From: a virus
Length of the DNA stretch: 36,813 nucleotides
Reading direction: 5' to 3' (one strand)
IMG/VR virus record: IMGVR_UViG_3300045256_000825
Coordinates: 1 to 36,813 of that record
Each line of letters begins with the position of its first letter. The stretch's first letter is position 1. The position numbers and the translations under genes are program-made. The notes beneath the pieces were generated by a model. That model was given only the letters and a program-made list of their open reading frames with translations, made no database searches and was not told where the DNA came from. Shown piece after piece: positions 337-36,813 of the stretch.

Positions 337-497
337 TGGCTGAAACACTTCAAGAGTTGCAAAACGAAATCAGGCTAAAGCAAGAGGAACTTGCCTTGGC
401 CTACGAGGAGGCAGATGTAGAGCAGATAGCTGAGCTGGAAGCTGAAATTGACGAGCTGCAAAGAAAACACTTCAACCTTAAACGCACGGACCGATGA
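336..497 (+). CDS. Small coiled-coil protein (53 aa)
   Basis: This short frame starts at the ATG overlapping the previous stop and ends with TGA overlapping the transposase ATG at 494, so it is coupled on both sides. The product is nearly all heptad-like Glu/Leu/Ala helix (for example LQELQNEIRLKQEELALAY) with a basic tail. It looks like a single coiled coil and may dimerise or bind a partner. No known family is recognised. It is a plausible small accessory to the transposition genes, but that rests only on position. Confidence 0.6.
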   Translation: MAETLQELQNEIRLKQEELALAYEEADVEQIAELEAEIDELQRKHFNLKRTDR

Positions 498-2476
498 AAC
501 TGATTGAAGGAAAACCCTACATCGAGTTTAATGAGATGGTGGATTGTGGTTTTAGTGCCAACTACTTGCGCAAAGCAAAAAGTACAGGAACAAAATGTTG
601 GAGCTTCATTGACGACCCGGCAGACAAGCGCAAAGTATTGATTGATTTTGAAGCCCTGAAGGATGAGTATAAGAAAAAGGTAGAAGCTCGCCTTGGCAAC
701 CCATACGAACGAATAGCCAAGCAACCCATCCGAGACCTTATTAAATGGGATGACAAAGCTGAAGAATTTTATCTCGCGCACCGCTATACTGGCACCGATG
801 GCCAACCGAAACCACTACCTGTTGAGCATGTAAAGAAGTACACGATCGCAGCCAATTTTCTGAACATGCTAAAGAAGATGACTGAGGAGAAAAAGACTAT
901 TAAGAAGCTGCTCAACCTGACTATCACAGACTTTTATCTCAACTGCATGGAGATTATTGAAGCTGATAACATTAACCTACCGGCTTCTTACGAAAGATTG
1001 GTGGCCCGTCCCGATTCGGCTCTCAAAAAGTACATAGCAAATGGATACTCCTCACTTATCAGTAAAGAATTTGGCAATAGCAAGGCCGCCAAAGTGAAGG
1101 ATGAACTTAGCCAAAGCACACTGCTCGAACTCATTTCCCACAACTACCAATTTGATGATGTAATCATCGCGCACCGATATAATGAGTGGGCCAAGAAGAA
1201 TAATTACAAGCCGATTGATCCGAGCACGGTTGGCGTGTGGCGCAACAAGCGCAGGTATGAAGTGGTGATGTATCGCGAGGGCAATGCAGAGCTCAAAAAT
1301 ACTTTCCTTAGACAAGTTAAGGGCTTCCGTCCGACTGCTCCGCTGTTCTTGATTGAGAGTGATGACAATCACCCGGATGTAAACTTCATCGACCTGGACA
1401 ACAACACACAGGCGAAATATTTTGGAAGGTACAAAGCGATTCTTGTCATCGACTCTTACAATGATTACCTGCTCGGATATGCTTATGCCACTGAACTGAG
1501 TAAAGACCTTGTTCGCGCTGCTTATCTGAACGCGATGTATCACATACGAGAATTAACAGGCTCCTGGTACCTGCCTCACGAAACAAAAACAGACCGTTGG
1601 GGATTGAAGGAACTGATGCCATTTTACAAAAGCCTTGGAAAATATTTCCCGACTCCCGTAGGCAGTAAGAACCGTGGATATATAGAAAACCTCTTCGGAA
1701 ATCACCACTGGAAAAATTGTTTGAAGCTGGCCGCACTTCAGGGAGGTAACTACACCGGCAACAACATCACTGCAAAGAACCGTGGCGTGAACATGGAGGT
1801 GATGAACCTCAATAAGAAAAACTTCCCCATCCTTGGCCAAGAGAGTGAGCAGCAAATCGAGCTCTTTATTCACAACCTGCGCCACTTACCTCAAAGCAAC
1901 AATATCAGCAAGCAGCAACAATGGCTTGCGGCTTTCAACCGGATGCCAGATACCGATAAGCGTTTGATCAGCGATGAGCAATTCCTGCTCCGCTTTGGTA
2001 TCGAGCATCAGCCAAAGAATGCAGATGGCATACGAATTACAAACCGGGGTATCACTCCTCAGATCAACGGAGTGAGATATAACTACGACCTCGCTCAATA
2101 TAATATAGAGGACATTGGGAAGAGGGTGAGCGTGATTTACGACCCCTACGATATGAGCCGTGTACTTGTTACTGACTTTGGCTCCTTCCGAATGATGGCC
2201 ACCGATGCAAAGCTATCACCCCGCGCTTTGCAGGATCACGGCATTGATAGCCGCACTTATCTCAACAGCATATTGAACGAGCGTAAAAACGATGTAGCGT
2301 ACATAGCTGAAAGATCGGAGCGCAGAAAACAAGTATTGCAGGAAAACGGAATCAGCGCGGAAGCTATTCTTCAATCAGGTGTGATGATAAAGGAAATGAA
2401 GCAAGCAGCAGAACAGAAAGCCATCGCCCAGATGAGCGGTGCCGTTGACGAAGATGATATCTATTCAAACTATTAA
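494..2476 (+). CDS. Mu A-type DDE transposase
   Basis: The 660-residue protein fits phage Mu MuA (663 aa), which catalyses strand transfer for integration and replicative transposition. The N-terminal ~70 residues look like a winged-helix DNA-binding domain. The RNase H-fold core carries a plausible catalytic triad: Asp290 in IESDDNHPD (aligning with MuA Asp269 in NGDGYLHN), Asp367 in KTDRWG, and Glu398 in NRGYIENLFG (MuA KPVERAFG). The C-terminal ~100 residues are charged and helical, as expected for the part that contacts the B ATPase and host ClpX. It overlaps the upstream small gene by 4 bases and is followed by the B-type ATPase, the usual A-B order. Confidence 0.93.
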   Translation: MKLIEGKPYIEFNEMVDCGFSANYLRKAKSTGTKCWSFIDDPADKRKVLIDFEALKDEYKKKVEARLGNPYERIAKQPIRDLIKWDDKAEEFYLAHRYTGTDGQPKPLPVEHVKKYTIAANFLNMLKKMTEEKKTIKKLLNLTITDFYLNCMEIIEADNINLPASYERLVARPDSALKKYIANGYSSLISKEFGNSKAAKVKDELSQSTLLELISHNYQFDDVIIAHRYNEWAKKNNYKPIDPSTVGVWRNKRRYEVVMYREGNAELKNTFLRQVKGFRPTAPLFLIESDDNHPDVNFIDLDNNTQAKYFGRYKAILVIDSYNDYLLGYAYATELSKDLVRAAYLNAMYHIRELTGSWYLPHETKTDRWGLKELMPFYKSLGKYFPTPVGSKNRGYIENLFGNHHWKNCLKLAALQGGNYTGNNITAKNRGVNMEVMNLNKKNFPILGQESEQQIELFIHNLRHLPQSNNISKQQQWLAAFNRMPDTDKRLISDEQFLLRFGIEHQPKNADGIRITNRGITPQINGVRYNYDLAQYNIEDIGKRVSVIYDPYDMSRVLVTDFGSFRMMATDAKLSPRALQDHGIDSRTYLNSILNERKNDVAYIAERSERRKQVLQENGISAEAILQSGVMIKEMKQAAEQKAIAQMSGAVDEDDIYSNY

Positions 2477-3429: not shown

Positions 3430-3846
3430 ATGAAAAATCTAACCATCAGACGTAAGAACGCCCCAAAAGATAGGGCCCTTCGGTTAAAGGCCAAGGTTTG
3501 CCTCGAGCTGAAATGGACTGATTTGCAGTATTCGGAGTTTCAATTTGAGATGGGCACAGCCTATTTAACTGCCTATCTGAATAGGGACGAGTACAGTATT
3601 CGGGTTATGGAGTCCAGCCGAATCTTCTGGGCATGGTGGCGCAACCATTGGACAAACCGGGATGAAACGTTCTTGGAGCAAGTGGTAAACACCACTTTTG
3701 ATTTGGCTGATGTGCGCGAAATCTATCGCGACATACATGATGCCACTACCCTTGCGCAGCAAATCTATCCGAGCGGGACCATCCTGAATGAAAGCTATGC
3801 GCACATGATTACGGAATTGATCAAAGAAGAAACACAACTACAATGA
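3430..3846 (+). CDS. Hypothetical early protein
   Basis: This 138-residue protein has a basic N-terminus (about 25 residues rich in Lys and Arg) and a mainly helical body with a Trp-rich patch around residue 65 (FWAWWRNHW). No family was recognised. It begins 22 bases after the ATPase gene and its stop overlaps the next ATG (ATGA), so it is in the same operon. A role in DNA binding or transposition would be a guess based on charge and position. Confidence 0.75.
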   Translation: MKNLTIRRKNAPKDRALRLKAKVCLELKWTDLQYSEFQFEMGTAYLTAYLNRDEYSIRVMESSRIFWAWWRNHWTNRDETFLEQVVNTTFDLADVREIYRDIHDATTLAQQIYPSGTILNESYAHMITELIKEETQLQ

Positions 3847-4334
3847 GAAAACACAATCTATTATTTCGTGCAGGCTATTGCACTTTGCTCGTCATCGTGG
3901 CTTGGATAGCCACAGGCTTTATCTGTCAACTCTTCATCCAAGAAAAGATGATGGTTTTTGTAGTCGGAACGATTAGCCAACAAATTGTATTCGGCATGGG
4001 AGTGCTGTTGTTCCTCGATCCAGTGGAATCGCAAAAACCCCTTCTGACAGAAAAGAAAAATAAAATTTGGGCCTATGTGATTAAACACTATGGAACCAAC
4101 CGTGAGGATTTGCTCGGGTTGCAAAGAGTATCTGTATTAGTAGATGCGCGAGGCGTCATTGCCTACACTATGCGCAAGTTTTTAGCAATGACCTATAAAC
4201 AGATAGGAATTGAATTGAATCGGGATCACACCAGCATTATAAGCCTGATTGGAAGAATGCAAGATCGAATCGACACAAAGGACGATCAGATCGAAAAGCA
4301 AATCAAAGAAGTAGAGAAACTTTTAAACCAATAA
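3843..4334 (+). CDS. Membrane protein with DnaA domain IV-like C-terminus
   Basis: The 163-residue product has two N-terminal membrane segments (about 9-32 and 36-58). A soluble region at about 75-163 resembles the DNA-binding domain IV of DnaA: VDARGVIAYTM is followed by TYKQIGIELNRDHTSII (residues 117-133). RDHT-[ST] is the DnaA signature loop that reads the DnaA box. There is no AAA domain, so it is not an initiator itself. Inference: a membrane-anchored DNA-binding protein that may compete with, tether or regulate at DnaA boxes. The similarity is to a short motif seen by eye, so it is firm as a resemblance and tentative as a function. It overlaps the upstream gene by 4 bases. Confidence 0.75.
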   Translation: MRKHNLLFRAGYCTLLVIVAWIATGFICQLFIQEKMMVFVVGTISQQIVFGMGVLLFLDPVESQKPLLTEKKNKIWAYVIKHYGTNREDLLGLQRVSVLVDARGVIAYTMRKFLAMTYKQIGIELNRDHTSIISLIGRMQDRIDTKDDQIEKQIKEVEKLLNQ

Positions 4335-8423: not shown

Positions 8424-8873
8424 ATGGAAACACTTAAAATCGAAATCCCCAAAGGCCATGTGATCGATAGCTTCGATCAGTCAACAGGCATCATCAAATT
8501 CAAAGAGAAGCCGAAGAATGTGATGGAACGCATCAAGACTATTGAAGATGTGTTGGCGGAATATGGCTTTACGCTTGAAGAATTTAGAAACAAATTTGCA
8601 AGCCTGGACGAAGACGAGAAAGCTTACAAGCTTTTGAAGTGGATGGTTTCAGTCCTCAATGAAGGATGGGAGCCAGACTGGAATGATAGTAACCAGGCAA
8701 AATACTATCCTTATTTTAACATGGGCGGTTCCTCCGGCTTTCGGTTGTGCGACTTCGATGACTGGCGCTCGCTTTCGAATGTCGGCTCGCGCCTTTGCTT
8801 TAAAAGCAAAGAATTGGCGCTTTACGCAGGAGAAAGATTCGTGGAGCTCTACAAACAATTCATGACCATTTAA
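8424..8873 (+). CDS. DGR target protein 1 (hypervariable)
   Basis: The 149-residue protein has an N-terminal strand-rich region (about 1-30), a helical linker, then a conserved core with EGWEPDWND, YYPYF, GGSSGFRL (101-108), VGSRLCF (120-126) and ELYKQF near the end. Residues 101-125 are encoded by VR1. Compared with the TR-encoded residues, position 109 is Cys for Asn, 111 Phe for Tyr, 113 Asp for Asn, 115 Arg for Asn and 117 Leu for Asn. No signal peptide or membrane segment is seen, so the product is probably cytoplasmic. It shares the core but not the N-terminus with the next two genes. The function is unknown; the variable surface implies ligand binding. Confidence 0.88.
   Translation: METLKIEIPKGHVIDSFDQSTGIIKFKEKPKNVMERIKTIEDVLAEYGFTLEEFRNKFASLDEDEKAYKLLKWMVSVLNEGWEPDWNDSNQAKYYPYFNMGGSSGFRLCDFDDWRSLSNVGSRLCFKSKELALYAGERFVELYKQFMTI
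8722..8799 (+). repeat. DGR variable repeat VR1
   Basis: This 78-bp segment aligns without gaps to the TR at 9688-9765. It differs at 12 positions, and every one is an adenine in the TR (TR 9709, 9714, 9715, 9721, 9726, 9732, 9733, 9738, 9739, 9750, 9757, 9761). All 61 non-adenine TR positions are unchanged. Similarity stops sharply after GCT at 8799. Confidence 0.95.
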
Positions 8874-8878
8874 TCACT

Positions 8879-9268
8879 ATGGAAATAAAACAACTAAAAA
8901 CGTTCGAAGACGCTTGCAAGGTCTTGGGTCTCGACAATGAAAAAGTGTTACCTGATTTCTCTTTCTTTCCAGAGAAACATCAGAAGGCAATGACAGCACA
9001 CTCAAAACTTGTGCTCATTGCGCAGGCAGCAAACCGCATAGCCAATGGAGGTGTTGATTGGACACCGGATTGGAATAATTACGACCAGTTCAAATACCAT
9101 CCTTGGTTTGCAATGGATGGCGGTTCCTCCGGCTTTCGGTTGAGCGGCTACGATGGCTGGGACTCGCTTTCGCCTGTCGGCTCGCGCCTTTGCTTCATTT
9201 CCAGCGAAGTTGCAGAGTATGTCGGGGAGACTTTCGTTGAGCTTTATAAAGACTATTTCACTTTATAG
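8879..9268 (+). CDS. DGR target protein 2 (hypervariable)
   Basis: A 129-residue paralogue of the following gene. TFEDACKV is at 8-15, followed by a helical region, then WTPDWNN, KYHPWF, GGSSGFRL (81-88), VGSRLCF (100-106) and FVELYKDYF. Residues 81-105 are encoded by VR2. Variable residues include Ser89, Gly90, Tyr91, Gly93, Asp95, Leu97 and Pro99, against Asn, Asp, Tyr, Asn, Asn, Asn and Asn in the TR. It starts 5 bases after target 1. No secretion signal is present. It lacks the ~30-residue N-terminal extension of target 1. Confidence 0.88.
   Translation: MEIKQLKTFEDACKVLGLDNEKVLPDFSFFPEKHQKAMTAHSKLVLIAQAANRIANGGVDWTPDWNNYDQFKYHPWFAMDGGSSGFRLSGYDGWDSLSPVGSRLCFISSEVAEYVGETFVELYKDYFTL
9119..9194 (+). 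repeat. DGR variable repeat VR2
   Basis: A 76-bp match to TR 9690-9765 with 13 mismatches, all at TR adenines (9709, 9715, 9718, 9726, 9727, 9732, 9738, 9739, 9744, 9745, 9750, 9757, 9761). At the 5' side homology ends two bases short of VR1 and VR3, with a non-adenine mismatch at TR 9689. Confidence 0.95.
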
Positions 9269-9271
9269 ACA

Positions 9272-9661
9272 ATGAAAAATTTCACTGAAATAAAAACGTT
9301 TGAAGATGCTTGCAAGGTTGAGCGTCTTGATCCGAAGAAAGTCATTCCTGATTTTAAAGCATATCCTCGGGAGGATCGCAAAGGAATGATTGCCCACGCT
9401 AAACTTGTGATCATAGCAAAGGCACTAAACAAGGTTGCCAATAACGGCAAAAGATGGAAGCCAGATTGGAATAATGGAACATGGGATAAATACTATCCTT
9501 GGTTTGTGATGGGCGGTTCCTCCGGCTTTCGGTTGTACGGCTTCGATGGCTGGCTCTCGGATTCGAGTGTCGGCTCGCGCCTTTGCTTCTGTTCCAGCGA
9601 ACTGGCAAAATATGCGGGGAAGCAGTTTATCAAACTGTATAAAGAATACTTTACGCTGTAA
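9272..9661 (+). CDS. DGR target protein 3 (hypervariable)
   Basis: A 129-residue paralogue of target 2, with TFEDACKV near residues 8-15, WKPDWNN, KYYPWF, GGSSGFRL (81-88), VGSRLCF (100-106) and FIKLYKEYF. Residues 81-105 come from VR3. Variable residues include Tyr89, Gly90, Phe91, Gly93, Leu95, Asp97 and Ser99. It begins 3 bases after target 2 and is directly followed by the noncoding TR region. The tandem targets 2 and 3 look like a gene duplication whose VRs then diverged through the DGR. Confidence 0.88.
   Translation: MKNFTEIKTFEDACKVERLDPKKVIPDFKAYPREDRKGMIAHAKLVIIAKALNKVANNGKRWKPDWNNGTWDKYYPWFVMGGSSGFRLYGFDGWLSDSSVGSRLCFCSSELAKYAGKQFIKLYKEYFTL
9510..9587 (+). repeat. DGR variable repeat VR3
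   Basis: A 78-bp gap-free match to the TR with 13 mismatches, all at TR adenines (9709, 9714, 9718, 9721, 9726, 9727, 9732, 9733, 9738, 9745, 9750, 9757, 9761). A small hairpin (CCAG-CGAA-CTGG, 9593-9604) lies 5 bases past its end. It recalls the stem-loop found after some VRs, but its stem is only 4 bp. Confidence 0.95.
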
Positions 9662-9875
9662 ATAATAAAAACAGGTTGTGCGATGGTTGGGCGGTTCCTC
9701 CGGCTTTCAGTTGAACGACTACGATAACTGGAACTCGAATTCGAATGTCAGCTCGCACCTATGCTAAAGACTTTAATGCTATCGCAGGCCGTGCCTCTCG
9801 GCAAAAAATGACAATCAAAAAAACCTAAGTCGTTGGTAGTTCTTAACGAAGGCGACTTATGAAAAGCAAAGGCAA
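9662..9875 (+). ncRNA. Probable DGR template RNA with structured spacer
   Basis: The 214-bp gap between target 3 and the reverse transcriptase has no credible gene. It holds the TR and a 110-bp spacer. The spacer contains TGCC-TCTC-GGCA (9792-9803) and a 7-bp stem TAAGTCG/CGACTTA (9826-9832 with 9853-9859), the latter just before the RT start. In the Bordetella phage DGR, the RNA downstream of the TR primes and supports cDNA synthesis. By analogy, this spacer is probably the functional part of the template RNA. The transcript ends are not known. Confidence 0.6.
9688..9765 (+). repeat. DGR template repeat (TR)
   Basis: This noncoding donor repeat lies between the last target gene and the reverse transcriptase, on the same strand as both. 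It has 17 adenines, many in AAC and AAT codons when read in the target frame. Those codons are typical of DGR templates because adenine mutagenesis of AAY reaches many amino acids without creating stops. Read in frame it would encode GGSSGFQL, then Asn-rich positions, then SSHLC and a stop just past the repeat. All three VRs match it at every non-adenine position within the aligned span. Confidence 0.95.
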
Positions 9876-10835
9876 ATGAAACGGATTGGAAACCTATACG
9901 AGCAAATTAAAGACCTGAAGAACATTCAGGAGGCAGATGCCAAAGCTCAAAAGGGCAAGGCTAGCCAGTATGGCGTTACTCTTCACAACAAAAATCGTGA
10001 GGCGAATCTCCTGATGCTTCACCAAATGCTATCTGAAAAAACCTACCGAACTTCCGAGTATACAACTTTCACTGTATTTGAACCTAAAGAAAGGCTTGTT
10101 TACAAGCTTCCTTTTTTTCCCGATCGCATTGCTCATCATGCGATTATGAATGTGCTGGAACCTGTTTTTGTTAACACATTCACGGCAGATACTTATAGCT
10201 GCATTAAGAATCGCGGCATACACTGCCTTTTTAATAAACTCAAACGCGACTTAACTGACATTGAGGGCACTCACTACTGCCTGAAATTTGACATAAAGAA
10301 ATTCTATCCCAGCATAGATCACAGCACTCTTAAAGCATTGCTGAGGAGAAAATTTAAGGACAAGGATTTACTCTGGCTGCTCGATGAAATCATAGATAGT
10401 GCTCCTGGCTTGCCGATCGGCAACTATTTGAGCCAATACCTTTCTAACTTTTATCTCAGCTATTTTGACCACTGGATCAAAGAAGAAAAGGCTGTAAAAT
10501 ATTACTATCGATACGCTGATGATATCGTGATTTTGCATCACGACAAGGCGAAGCTGCATGAATTATTAGGCTGCATTAGAATCTACCTTGAAGAGCTGAA
10601 GCTGGAGATCAAAGATAATCACCAAGTTTTTCCGGTTGAATCCAGAGGCATTGACTTTGTAGGTTATGTCTTTCGCCATTCTCATATACGAATCCGCAAA
10701 CAGATCAAGAAAAACTTTGCCCGCAAATTGGCGAAGAATCCAAACCATGCTTCCAAGGCTTCTTACCTGGGATGGTTGGGCCATTGTGATGCTAAGCATT
10801 TAACTAAAAAACTGATCGGCCATGAACAACTTTAA
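9876..10835 (+). CDS. DGR reverse transcriptase
   Basis: The 319-residue protein carries the retroelement RT core: FPDRIAHHAI (81-90), KFDIKKFYPSID (137-148), GLPIGNYLSQ (178-187) and the catalytic YADD (213-216). The IGNxxSQ motif, in place of the xPQG of group II intron and retron RTs, is characteristic of DGR RTs. There is no maturase or endonuclease domain, and the length is normal for the family. It copies the TR RNA with adenine errors, and the cDNA replaces the VRs of the three upstream genes. The start ATG follows the spacer hairpin. Its end overlaps the next gene by 14 bases. Confidence 0.95.
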   Translation: MKRIGNLYEQIKDLKNIQEADAKAQKGKASQYGVTLHNKNREANLLMLHQMLSEKTYRTSEYTTFTVFEPKERLVYKLPFFPDRIAHHAIMNVLEPVFVNTFTADTYSCIKNRGIHCLFNKLKRDLTDIEGTHYCLKFDIKKFYPSIDHSTLKALLRRKFKDKDLLWLLDEIIDSAPGLPIGNYLSQYLSNFYLSYFDHWIKEEKAVKYYYRYADDIVILHHDKAKLHELLGCIRIYLEELKLEIKDNHQVFPVESRGIDFVGYVFRHSHIRIRKQIKKNFARKLAKNPNHASKASYLGWLGHCDAKHLTKKLIGHEQL

Positions 10836-11118
10836 AGACTTCAATATTCAGCCCAGGGTGAATTCATTTGTGGGTGAAAAGATTCAGGTTCAGAAGCTAT
10901 TCAACCTAACCATAAAGGTGCTCGACTATAAAATCGAGCCATCGAAGCAGAAGAAGGATACCGAGTTGCTTACTCTACAAATAGAAAAGAGTGGAGAGAA
11001 GCGTATTGTATTCACCGGCTCCAAGGTGCTGATCGAAATGATCAGACAGGTTCCAAAGAATGGATTCCCGTTCACTACAGTAATTAAAGGCGACAACGAT
11101 TACTACGAATTCACATGA
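10822..11118 (+). CDS. Small hypothetical protein coupled to the DGR RT
   Basis: A 98-residue protein starting inside the RT gene (14-base overlap) and overlapping the GemA-like gene by 4 bases. The middle is strand-rich (FNLTIKVLDYKIEPSK, then KKDTELLTLQIEK, then KRIVFTGSKVLIEMI). This pattern could be an OB-fold-like nucleic-acid-binding domain, but that is inference from secondary structure only. It is not similar to Avd, which is a four-helix bundle. It may belong to the phage core rather than the DGR. Confidence 0.7.
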   Translation: MNNFKDFNIQPRVNSFVGEKIQVQKLFNLTIKVLDYKIEPSKQKKDTELLTLQIEKSGEKRIVFTGSKVLIEMIRQVPKNGFPFTTVIKGDNDYYEFT

Positions 11119-36021: not shown

Positions 36022-36813
36022 ATGAACGTAAAAACACCAATCAGTTATTATGGTGGAAAGCAAAAGTTGCTTTCCACTATTCTCAGTAAAATTCCTCAGC
36101 ACAATTTGTATTGTGAACCATTCTTAGGAGGTGCAGCCGTGTTCTTTGGAAAAGAGCCCAGTGCCGTAGAAGTAATCAACGACACCAACAAAGAGTTAAT
36201 CAACTTTTACAGGGTCTGTAAAGAGAAGTTCCTCGACCTTCAGTGTCTTATCAGGATTACCCTGCATAGCCGTAAGGCCCACCAGGATGCCAACATTATC
36301 TACTCAAATCCTCATCTGTTTACCGATGTGCAGCGGGCTTGGGCCGTGTGGGTACTCAGCTCACAGTCATTCAGTGCTATGCTGGATGGGAGCTGGGGCT
36401 ATGATATTTCCAAAAGAACGACCACAACGCGTATTTCCAATAAGCGCGAGCAGTTCACCGAGGAGCTGGCGATCCGCTTACAGGAAGCTCAAATAGAATG
36501 TGCGGATGCCTTATATATCATTCAAAGCAGGGACGGAGCCGACAGTTTCTTTTACTGCGACCCGCCTTACTATAACTCGGATTGCGGCCATTATGACGGT
36601 TATACTATCGAGGATTTCGAACGCTTATTGCAGACTTTGAGCGGCATTAAAGGGAAGTTCTTGCTGAGTTCCTACCCCTCTGACTTGCTGCGCAAATATG
36701 CTAAAGCAAACGGATGGCATCAGTGGAGCTTGGAGACGGGAGTCACCGTCAACAATAAATCAGGGTATTTAAAGCGAAAGATTGAGGTATTGACGGCCAG
36801 CTATGAAATATAG
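36022..36813 (+). CDS. D12-class DNA adenine N6-methyltransferase
   Basis: A 263-residue protein with the Dam/D12-family motifs in order: YYGGKQKL (9-16), CEPFLGGAAVFFG (31-43, AdoMet binding), INDTNKEL (about 52-59) and the catalytic CDPPYY (179-184). It methylates adenine N6 in a specific DNA site. Length is usual for the family. It lies at the right end of the phage map, where Mu carries its mom DNA-modification gene, so it may protect phage DNA from host restriction. A possible inverted repeat (CTATTTG/CAAATAG, 35980-35986 with 36010-36016) lies just upstream and could be an operator. Confidence 0.92.
   Translation: MNVKTPISYYGGKQKLLSTILSKIPQHNLYCEPFLGGAAVFFGKEPSAVEVINDTNKELINFYRVCKEKFLDLQCLIRITLHSRKAHQDANIIYSNPHLFTDVQRAWAVWVLSSQSFSAMLDGSWGYDISKRTTTTRISNKREQFTEELAIRLQEAQIECADALYIIQSRDGADSFFYCDPPYYNSDCGHYDGYTIEDFERLLQTLSGIKGKFLLSSYPSDLLRKYAKANGWHQWSLETGVTVNNKSGYLKRKIEVLTASYEI

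Follow-up and report, generated by a model that had tools for sequence, protein, structure and literature searches.

A Mu-like phage probably carries an early-operon diversity-generating retroelement with A/B targets and a conserved non-Avd partner

Repeats, reverse transcriptase, and spacer RNA

The window analyzed here is the whole 36,813-nt stretch of the IMG/VR virus record IMGVR_UViG_3300045256_000825, in which an earlier note, made from the letters alone, had described a complete diversity-generating retroelement (DGR). A direct-repeat search over the window yielded four 78-nt copies, all on the plus strand: a template repeat (TR; 9688-9765), with 17 adenines in its 78 nt and spanned by no open reading frame (ORF) of at least 60 aa, and three variable repeats (VR1, 8722-8799; VR2, 9119-9194, aligned over 76 nt; VR3, 9510-9587). 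The VRs lie in three consecutive plus-strand genes, target gene 1 (8424-8873; 149 aa), target gene 2 (8879-9268; 129 aa), and target gene 3 (9272-9661; 129 aa), and end about 25 codons ahead of the stop in all three. Downstream of the TR and on the same strand are a structured spacer RNA (9787-9870), a 319-aa reverse transcriptase (RT; 9876-10835), and a 98-aa ORF (10822-11118). The repeat search reproduced the coordinates already reported for the TR and the three VRs. The extent previously assigned to the element, 8424-10835, does contain the elements then described, but the cassette reaches 11118 with the 98-aa ORF, which overlaps the RT stop. No further VR was found in a scan of both strands of the window, the next-best candidate having 28 non-adenine mismatches, and no stem-loop common to the 3' flanks of the three VRs was noticed on inspection by eye.

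Computational alignment of the four repeats gave 12, 13, and 13 mismatches to the TR for VR1, VR2, and VR3, respectively, matching the counts earlier obtained by hand, and the three VRs also differ among themselves. All mismatches (38/38) fell on TR adenines over the shared 76-78 nt, a span in which careful alignment revealed no non-adenine mismatch; the probability of this placement arising by chance was ~2e-10 for VR1, 2e-11 for VR2, and 2e-11 for VR3. The proviso that this applies within the aligned spans is required because VR2 starts two bases later than the others, positions 9117-9118 differing from the TR at T and G. An IMG/VR search found 318 relatives, 80 of which were kept and examined; when the transposase served as the query instead, no relatives were recovered from IMG/VR. 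An adenine-masked scan for repeats upstream of the RT in these 80 relatives identified a TR and VRs in 73; in the remaining seven, the RT is preceded by less than 0.8 kb of sequence.

Family-wide comparison also revealed a fixed zone at the 3' ends of the repeats, located in the window at 9749-9765 of the TR (CAGCTCGCACCTATGCT) and at 8783-8799, 9178-9194, and 9571-9587 of the VRs (CGGCTCGCGCCTTTGCT), all on the plus strand. In the relatives, GTCAGCTCnCACCTATGC in the TR stands opposite GTCGGCTCnCGCCTTTGC in the VR in nearly all of about 88-90 TR/VR pairs, and the VR T is retained even in pairs whose TR carries G or C in place of A. Opposite the TR adenines of this zone, VR cells were non-A in 347 of 348 cases (G, 231; T, 112; C, 4), and those opposite core TR adenines were A in 621, G in 503, T in 319, and C in 215. 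TR positions 9750, 9757, and 9761 are mismatched in each VR of the window, and since they are fixed in nearly every relative, these 9 of the 38 mismatches are no evidence of individual mutagenic events. The adenine-only pattern thus stands as the signature of mutagenic retrohoming that it had been taken for, but not every mismatch can be counted toward it. In the window, the last change of the zone still encodes Leu, and selection on the protein is therefore not by itself a sufficient explanation of the fixed zone. By analogy, the zone is best read as the IMH*/IMH discriminator known from the TR/VR 3' ends of BPP-1 (PMC3240598, PMC4372165), presumably with the same function.

The RT matched PF00078 (E 6e-19) and phrog_1423 (E 7e-118) and has the motifs IGNYLSQ and YADD, both intact, which agrees with its original designation as DGR-type. 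Its best PDB match was 8ub7 (E 1e-42), which we take to be the BPP-1 RT (bRT) and hence its best solved relative; retron-type and group II chains matched at 4e-14 or weaker. In a maximum-likelihood tree of DGR and group II RTs, the placement proposed as a check at the outset, the RT grouped among DGR RTs and was split from group II RTs at 100/100, ruling out a group II intron type. Within the DGR RTs, it belonged to a Bacteroidota phage clade adjoining crAss-like RTs. By every available sequence test the cassette is a genuine DGR, an assignment made because of adenine-only mismatches, a DGR-type RT, a TR in an intergenic RNA beside the RT, and a Mu-like host phage.

The spacer between the TR and the RT scored 34.8 bits (E 4e-4) against Rfam RT-17 (RF03020), below the gathering cutoff of 40.4 in the window, and this cutoff was passed by 2 of 18 sampled relatives (L026, L032). 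Alignment of the spacer from 54 relatives indicated compensatory changes in 9 of 13 predicted pairs, with 96.6% of cells able to pair, and shifted or shuffled controls gave far lower values than the real alignment. The structure is visible in the alignment only, as minimum free energy folding of the single TR-spacer was no better than that of shuffles (z 0.58). On this evidence from covariation, the spacer at 9787-9870 is a covarying RNA related to RT-17. In relatives with a small ORF between TR and RT, the spacer RNA remains with the TR, which fits the expectation of one TR-spacer transcript. The small ORFs located between the TR-spacer RNA and the RT in L002, L009, L012, L013, and L025 are different ones.

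Target genes and their genome position

At least two tandem targets were present in 69 of the 72 loci with recognizable target ORFs (window included), and three were present in 7. The feeding of adjacent VRs by one template, which had been regarded as unusual, is therefore the rule in the family of this RT. A target tree built with the VR columns removed separated upstream targets of about 150 aa (type A) from downstream targets of about 125-138 aa (type B), with a single split (support, 0.98) dividing the two types correctly in 91 of 92 cases. Target gene 1 (phrog_11581, E 1e-18) belonged to the A clade, and target genes 2 (E 8e-22) and 3 (E 6e-25 to the same family) belonged to the B clade, giving the order A-B-B in the window; the order is A-A-B in others. 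Because of this VR-masked split, the three targets of the window are considered the conserved pair plus one extra B. An origin of target 3 as a recent copy of target 2 was ruled out by their 62% identity and different nearest relatives. Judged from gene order and the tree, two tandem targets forming an ancient A/B pair are the norm in this family. In one relative, which resides in a bacterial genome, a third VR-bearing target (L125:4114-4563) lies remote from the cassette, ~10 kb upstream of it and ahead of a transposase-sized ORF.

The targets matched only phrog_11581, a family of unknown function; Pfam and PDB sequence searches provided no family, PADLOC gave no defense-system match, and no hydrophobic N-terminus or signal and no membrane segment were detected. 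The AlphaFold2 model of the target was of low confidence in its VR part, and a Foldseek comparison of this partly low-confidence model with the PDB returned no match.

The Mu-like nature of the phage, inferred from the sequence in the earlier note, was confirmed by a Mu-type transposase A gene at the start of the early operon (494-2476, plus strand; phrog_310, E 2e-21) and a MuB-like ATPase (AAA_22, E 5e-17), both at the left end of the window. The targets share a strand with the MuA gene and follow it at a distance of 6 kb; in all relatives with a transposase match (13/13), the RT, again on the strand of the transposase, begins 4-7.6 kb downstream of that match. An early ORF at 3843-4334 has a DnaA C-terminal helix-turn-helix domain (PF08299, E 2e-12). 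At the other end of the window, a DNA methyltransferase gene (36022-36813) ends exactly at the window end, and the record looks cut at gene boundaries.

Because the targets are located among takeover genes and not among tail genes, a role as variable binding proteins inside the cell, directed for example against host defense or host factors, is more likely for them than one as tail-tip receptor binders. The alternative that survives best is an ordinary tropism-switching DGR, in which the three small targets would be virion receptor-binding tips that are encoded early, like BPP-1 Mtd or the hankyphage target. This alternative gains from the predominance of adhesion proteins among the phage DGR targets studied (PMC8144416, PMC10743442), and the window VRs end in GSRLCF, which recalls the GFR ending of C-type-lectin VRs. 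Bacteroides phage Versailles also speaks for it: there, a single TR has VRs in two places, a tail protein adjacent to the RT and, 44 kb off among recombination genes, a protein of the target family. The two Versailles loci are L082:7881-8462 and L085:5832-5939, and the remote early-region protein is itself annotated as a tail protein, which makes a virion role possible. Versailles thus resembles the window in having an early-region protein of the target family as a DGR target, but differs in the 44-kb distance of that target from the RT and in the tail protein as the adjacent target. Against a tropism-switching role, the cassette of the window belongs to the early operon, with the tail fiber gene 22 kb away, and has equal geometry in the 13 relatives noted above; the whole-window scan found no VR in the tail genes; and target homologues in LoVEphage, Versailles, and a Bacteroidota genome (L126) are situated among recombination or DNA-metabolism genes. 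We regard tropism switching as a serious possibility, although a somewhat unlikely one, and the comparison with BPP-1 tropism switching does not extend to function, since these are early-operon genes at a distance from the tail fiber. The L126 homologue (L126:9836-10576) consists of a target-family domain fused to an unknown C-terminal domain beside an SbcC-like ORF, with no related RT within the 20 kb read around it.

The 98-aa ORF downstream of the RT

The 98-aa ORF overlaps the RT end by 14 nt, as its homologues in relatives usually do, and tblastn identified a homologue next to the RT in 79 of 80 relatives. In an annotated phage collection, the only tblastn matches were the archaeal viruses vir525 and ANMV-1, in each directly after a DGR RT. 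Homologues were also present in 5 of 396 Bacteroidota genomes (the center genome included), all directly after a DGR RT, and three of these five genomes had no recognizable window-type target nearby. The C-terminus of the hankyphage p00 RT is the same domain as the 98-aa ORF (E 1e-13), and no homologue was found away from an RT in the collections searched. Pfam and PDB sequence searches identified no family for the ORF. Its AlphaFold2 model (pLDDT, 90.5) has the strand order b1-b2-b3-helix-b4-b5, which is the OB order, and the matches of the model in the PDB were weak and mostly OB domains (best E 0.014), so the predicted fold is OB-like. Among viral structures, RTs ranked first, and the only significant matches of the model were two other viral RTs, with that of crAss cr7_1 at E 4e-3. 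The proposal that crAss RT C-termini represent the same domain was unsupported by sequence and weakly favored by structure.

No bAvd (PF22296) was found in the window or in 20 of 21 relatives, and the six-frame ORFs included no relative of BPP-1 Avd. A bAvd-family gene is present ~12 kb from the RT at the end of one contig (L132, the contig of L047), possibly as part of a second DGR or as a host gene. To our knowledge, Avd is present in the DGR prototype and is not universal among DGRs, and its absence is therefore no bar to DGR membership. The element had been called complete, which is correct for the TR, VRs, and RT but not for Avd, although a different conserved partner is present. Avd is needed in the model DGR yet is absent from this cassette and its relatives. 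A partner that adjoins the RT or is fused to it in distant viruses thus offers a concrete, testable candidate for an Avd substitute, and we infer that the 98-aa partner may take the place of Avd. Reconstitution of the BPP-1 DGR in E. coli has been described (PMC12875486). No description of the partner was found in the open-access papers searched, a scope outside which the accessory-gene survey of Wu et al. (2018) falls. It is improbable that the 98-aa ORF is a mere neighboring early phage gene, such as one for a single-stranded DNA (ssDNA)-binding protein, carried along outside the DGR: OB-fold-like proteins are common in phage early regions and one viral structural match of the ORF is an ssDNA-binding protein, but the ORF tracks the RT across very different phages, archaeal viruses, and unrelated targets, and is fused to the RT in p00.

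Comparison with known systems places this combination in context. The BPP-1 DGR shares with the window the RT family, the adenine-only pattern, a TR upstream of the RT, a spacer RNA, and distinct 3' TR/VR ends; however, in BPP-1 the TR is preceded by Avd and the single target is a tail fiber, whereas the window lacks Avd, has another partner downstream, and diversifies three small early genes. Hankyphage p00, likewise a Mu-like Bacteroidota phage, has an RT with an OB-like domain fused C-terminally and an RT-associated RNA (RT-3, RF03068) in the same place as the spacer of the window. Its RT is only 37% identical to that of the window and is adjoined by one very large target near the right end, whereas in the window the partner has an ORF of its own and the targets are small proteins encoded early. 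The Crassvirales DGRs (cr55_1, LMMB, and others) contain the closest annotated RTs, with up to 56% identity, and the RT of cr7_1 is a structural match of the partner, as mentioned above (E 4e-3); their targets differ in being tail proteins beside the RT, and a fusion of the partner domain lacks sequence support in them. In the archaeal-virus DGRs of ANMV-1 and vir525, the RT is followed immediately by a homologue of the 98-aa ORF, but the targets are of the tail type or AdtA and the RTs are distant from that of the window.

Activity and proposed working of the retroelement

Two near-identical loci from two metagenomes (L013 and L014) differed at 6 of 1962 aligned bases, all in a VR opposite a TR adenine, and L024, L026, and L027 have identical TRs with VR differences that are all opposite TR adenines. 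The comparison of L013 with L014 shows, indirectly and at the level of sequence, recent DGR activity in the family of the window's RT. Decay of the window phage's own cassette into an inactive DGR is very unlikely, given that all ORFs and the RT motifs are intact, that no non-adenine mismatch occurs in 76 nt, and that the VRs are mutually different.

Our preferred reading, to which we assign a probability of about 0.78, is that the locus is an early-operon DGR of a Mu-like prophage in a Bacteroidota host, with a non-Avd partner and A/B targets. In the proposed mechanism, an RNA spanning the TR and the structured spacer would be bound by the RT and the 98-aa OB-fold-like partner, the latter in place of Avd. 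The RT would copy the TR RNA into cDNA with random bases opposite template adenines, and this cDNA could replace the VR in any of the three adjacent genes. Guidance of the cDNA by the shared 5' sequence and the fixed 3' discriminator would allow the VRs to be overwritten while the TR is spared. The proteins so diversified would be small and free of signal and membrane segments, comprising an ancestral A/B pair and an extra B copy.

The cassette is of a type already known, of which it is a notable variant by virtue of the conserved non-Avd partner and the early-operon A/B targets. A broader proposal, which we advance tentatively and hold at a little under even odds, is that Bacteroidota phages and archaeal viruses share a DGR lineage in which an OB-fold protein, either free or fused to the RT, serves as RT partner in place of Avd, and that this branch of it diversifies a conserved pair of intracellular early proteins. 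If this is true, a temperate phage would hypermutate a takeover or anti-defense function rather than its tail. The presence of diversified proteins in the early operon prompts the question whether intracellular functions are subject to hypermutation by phages.
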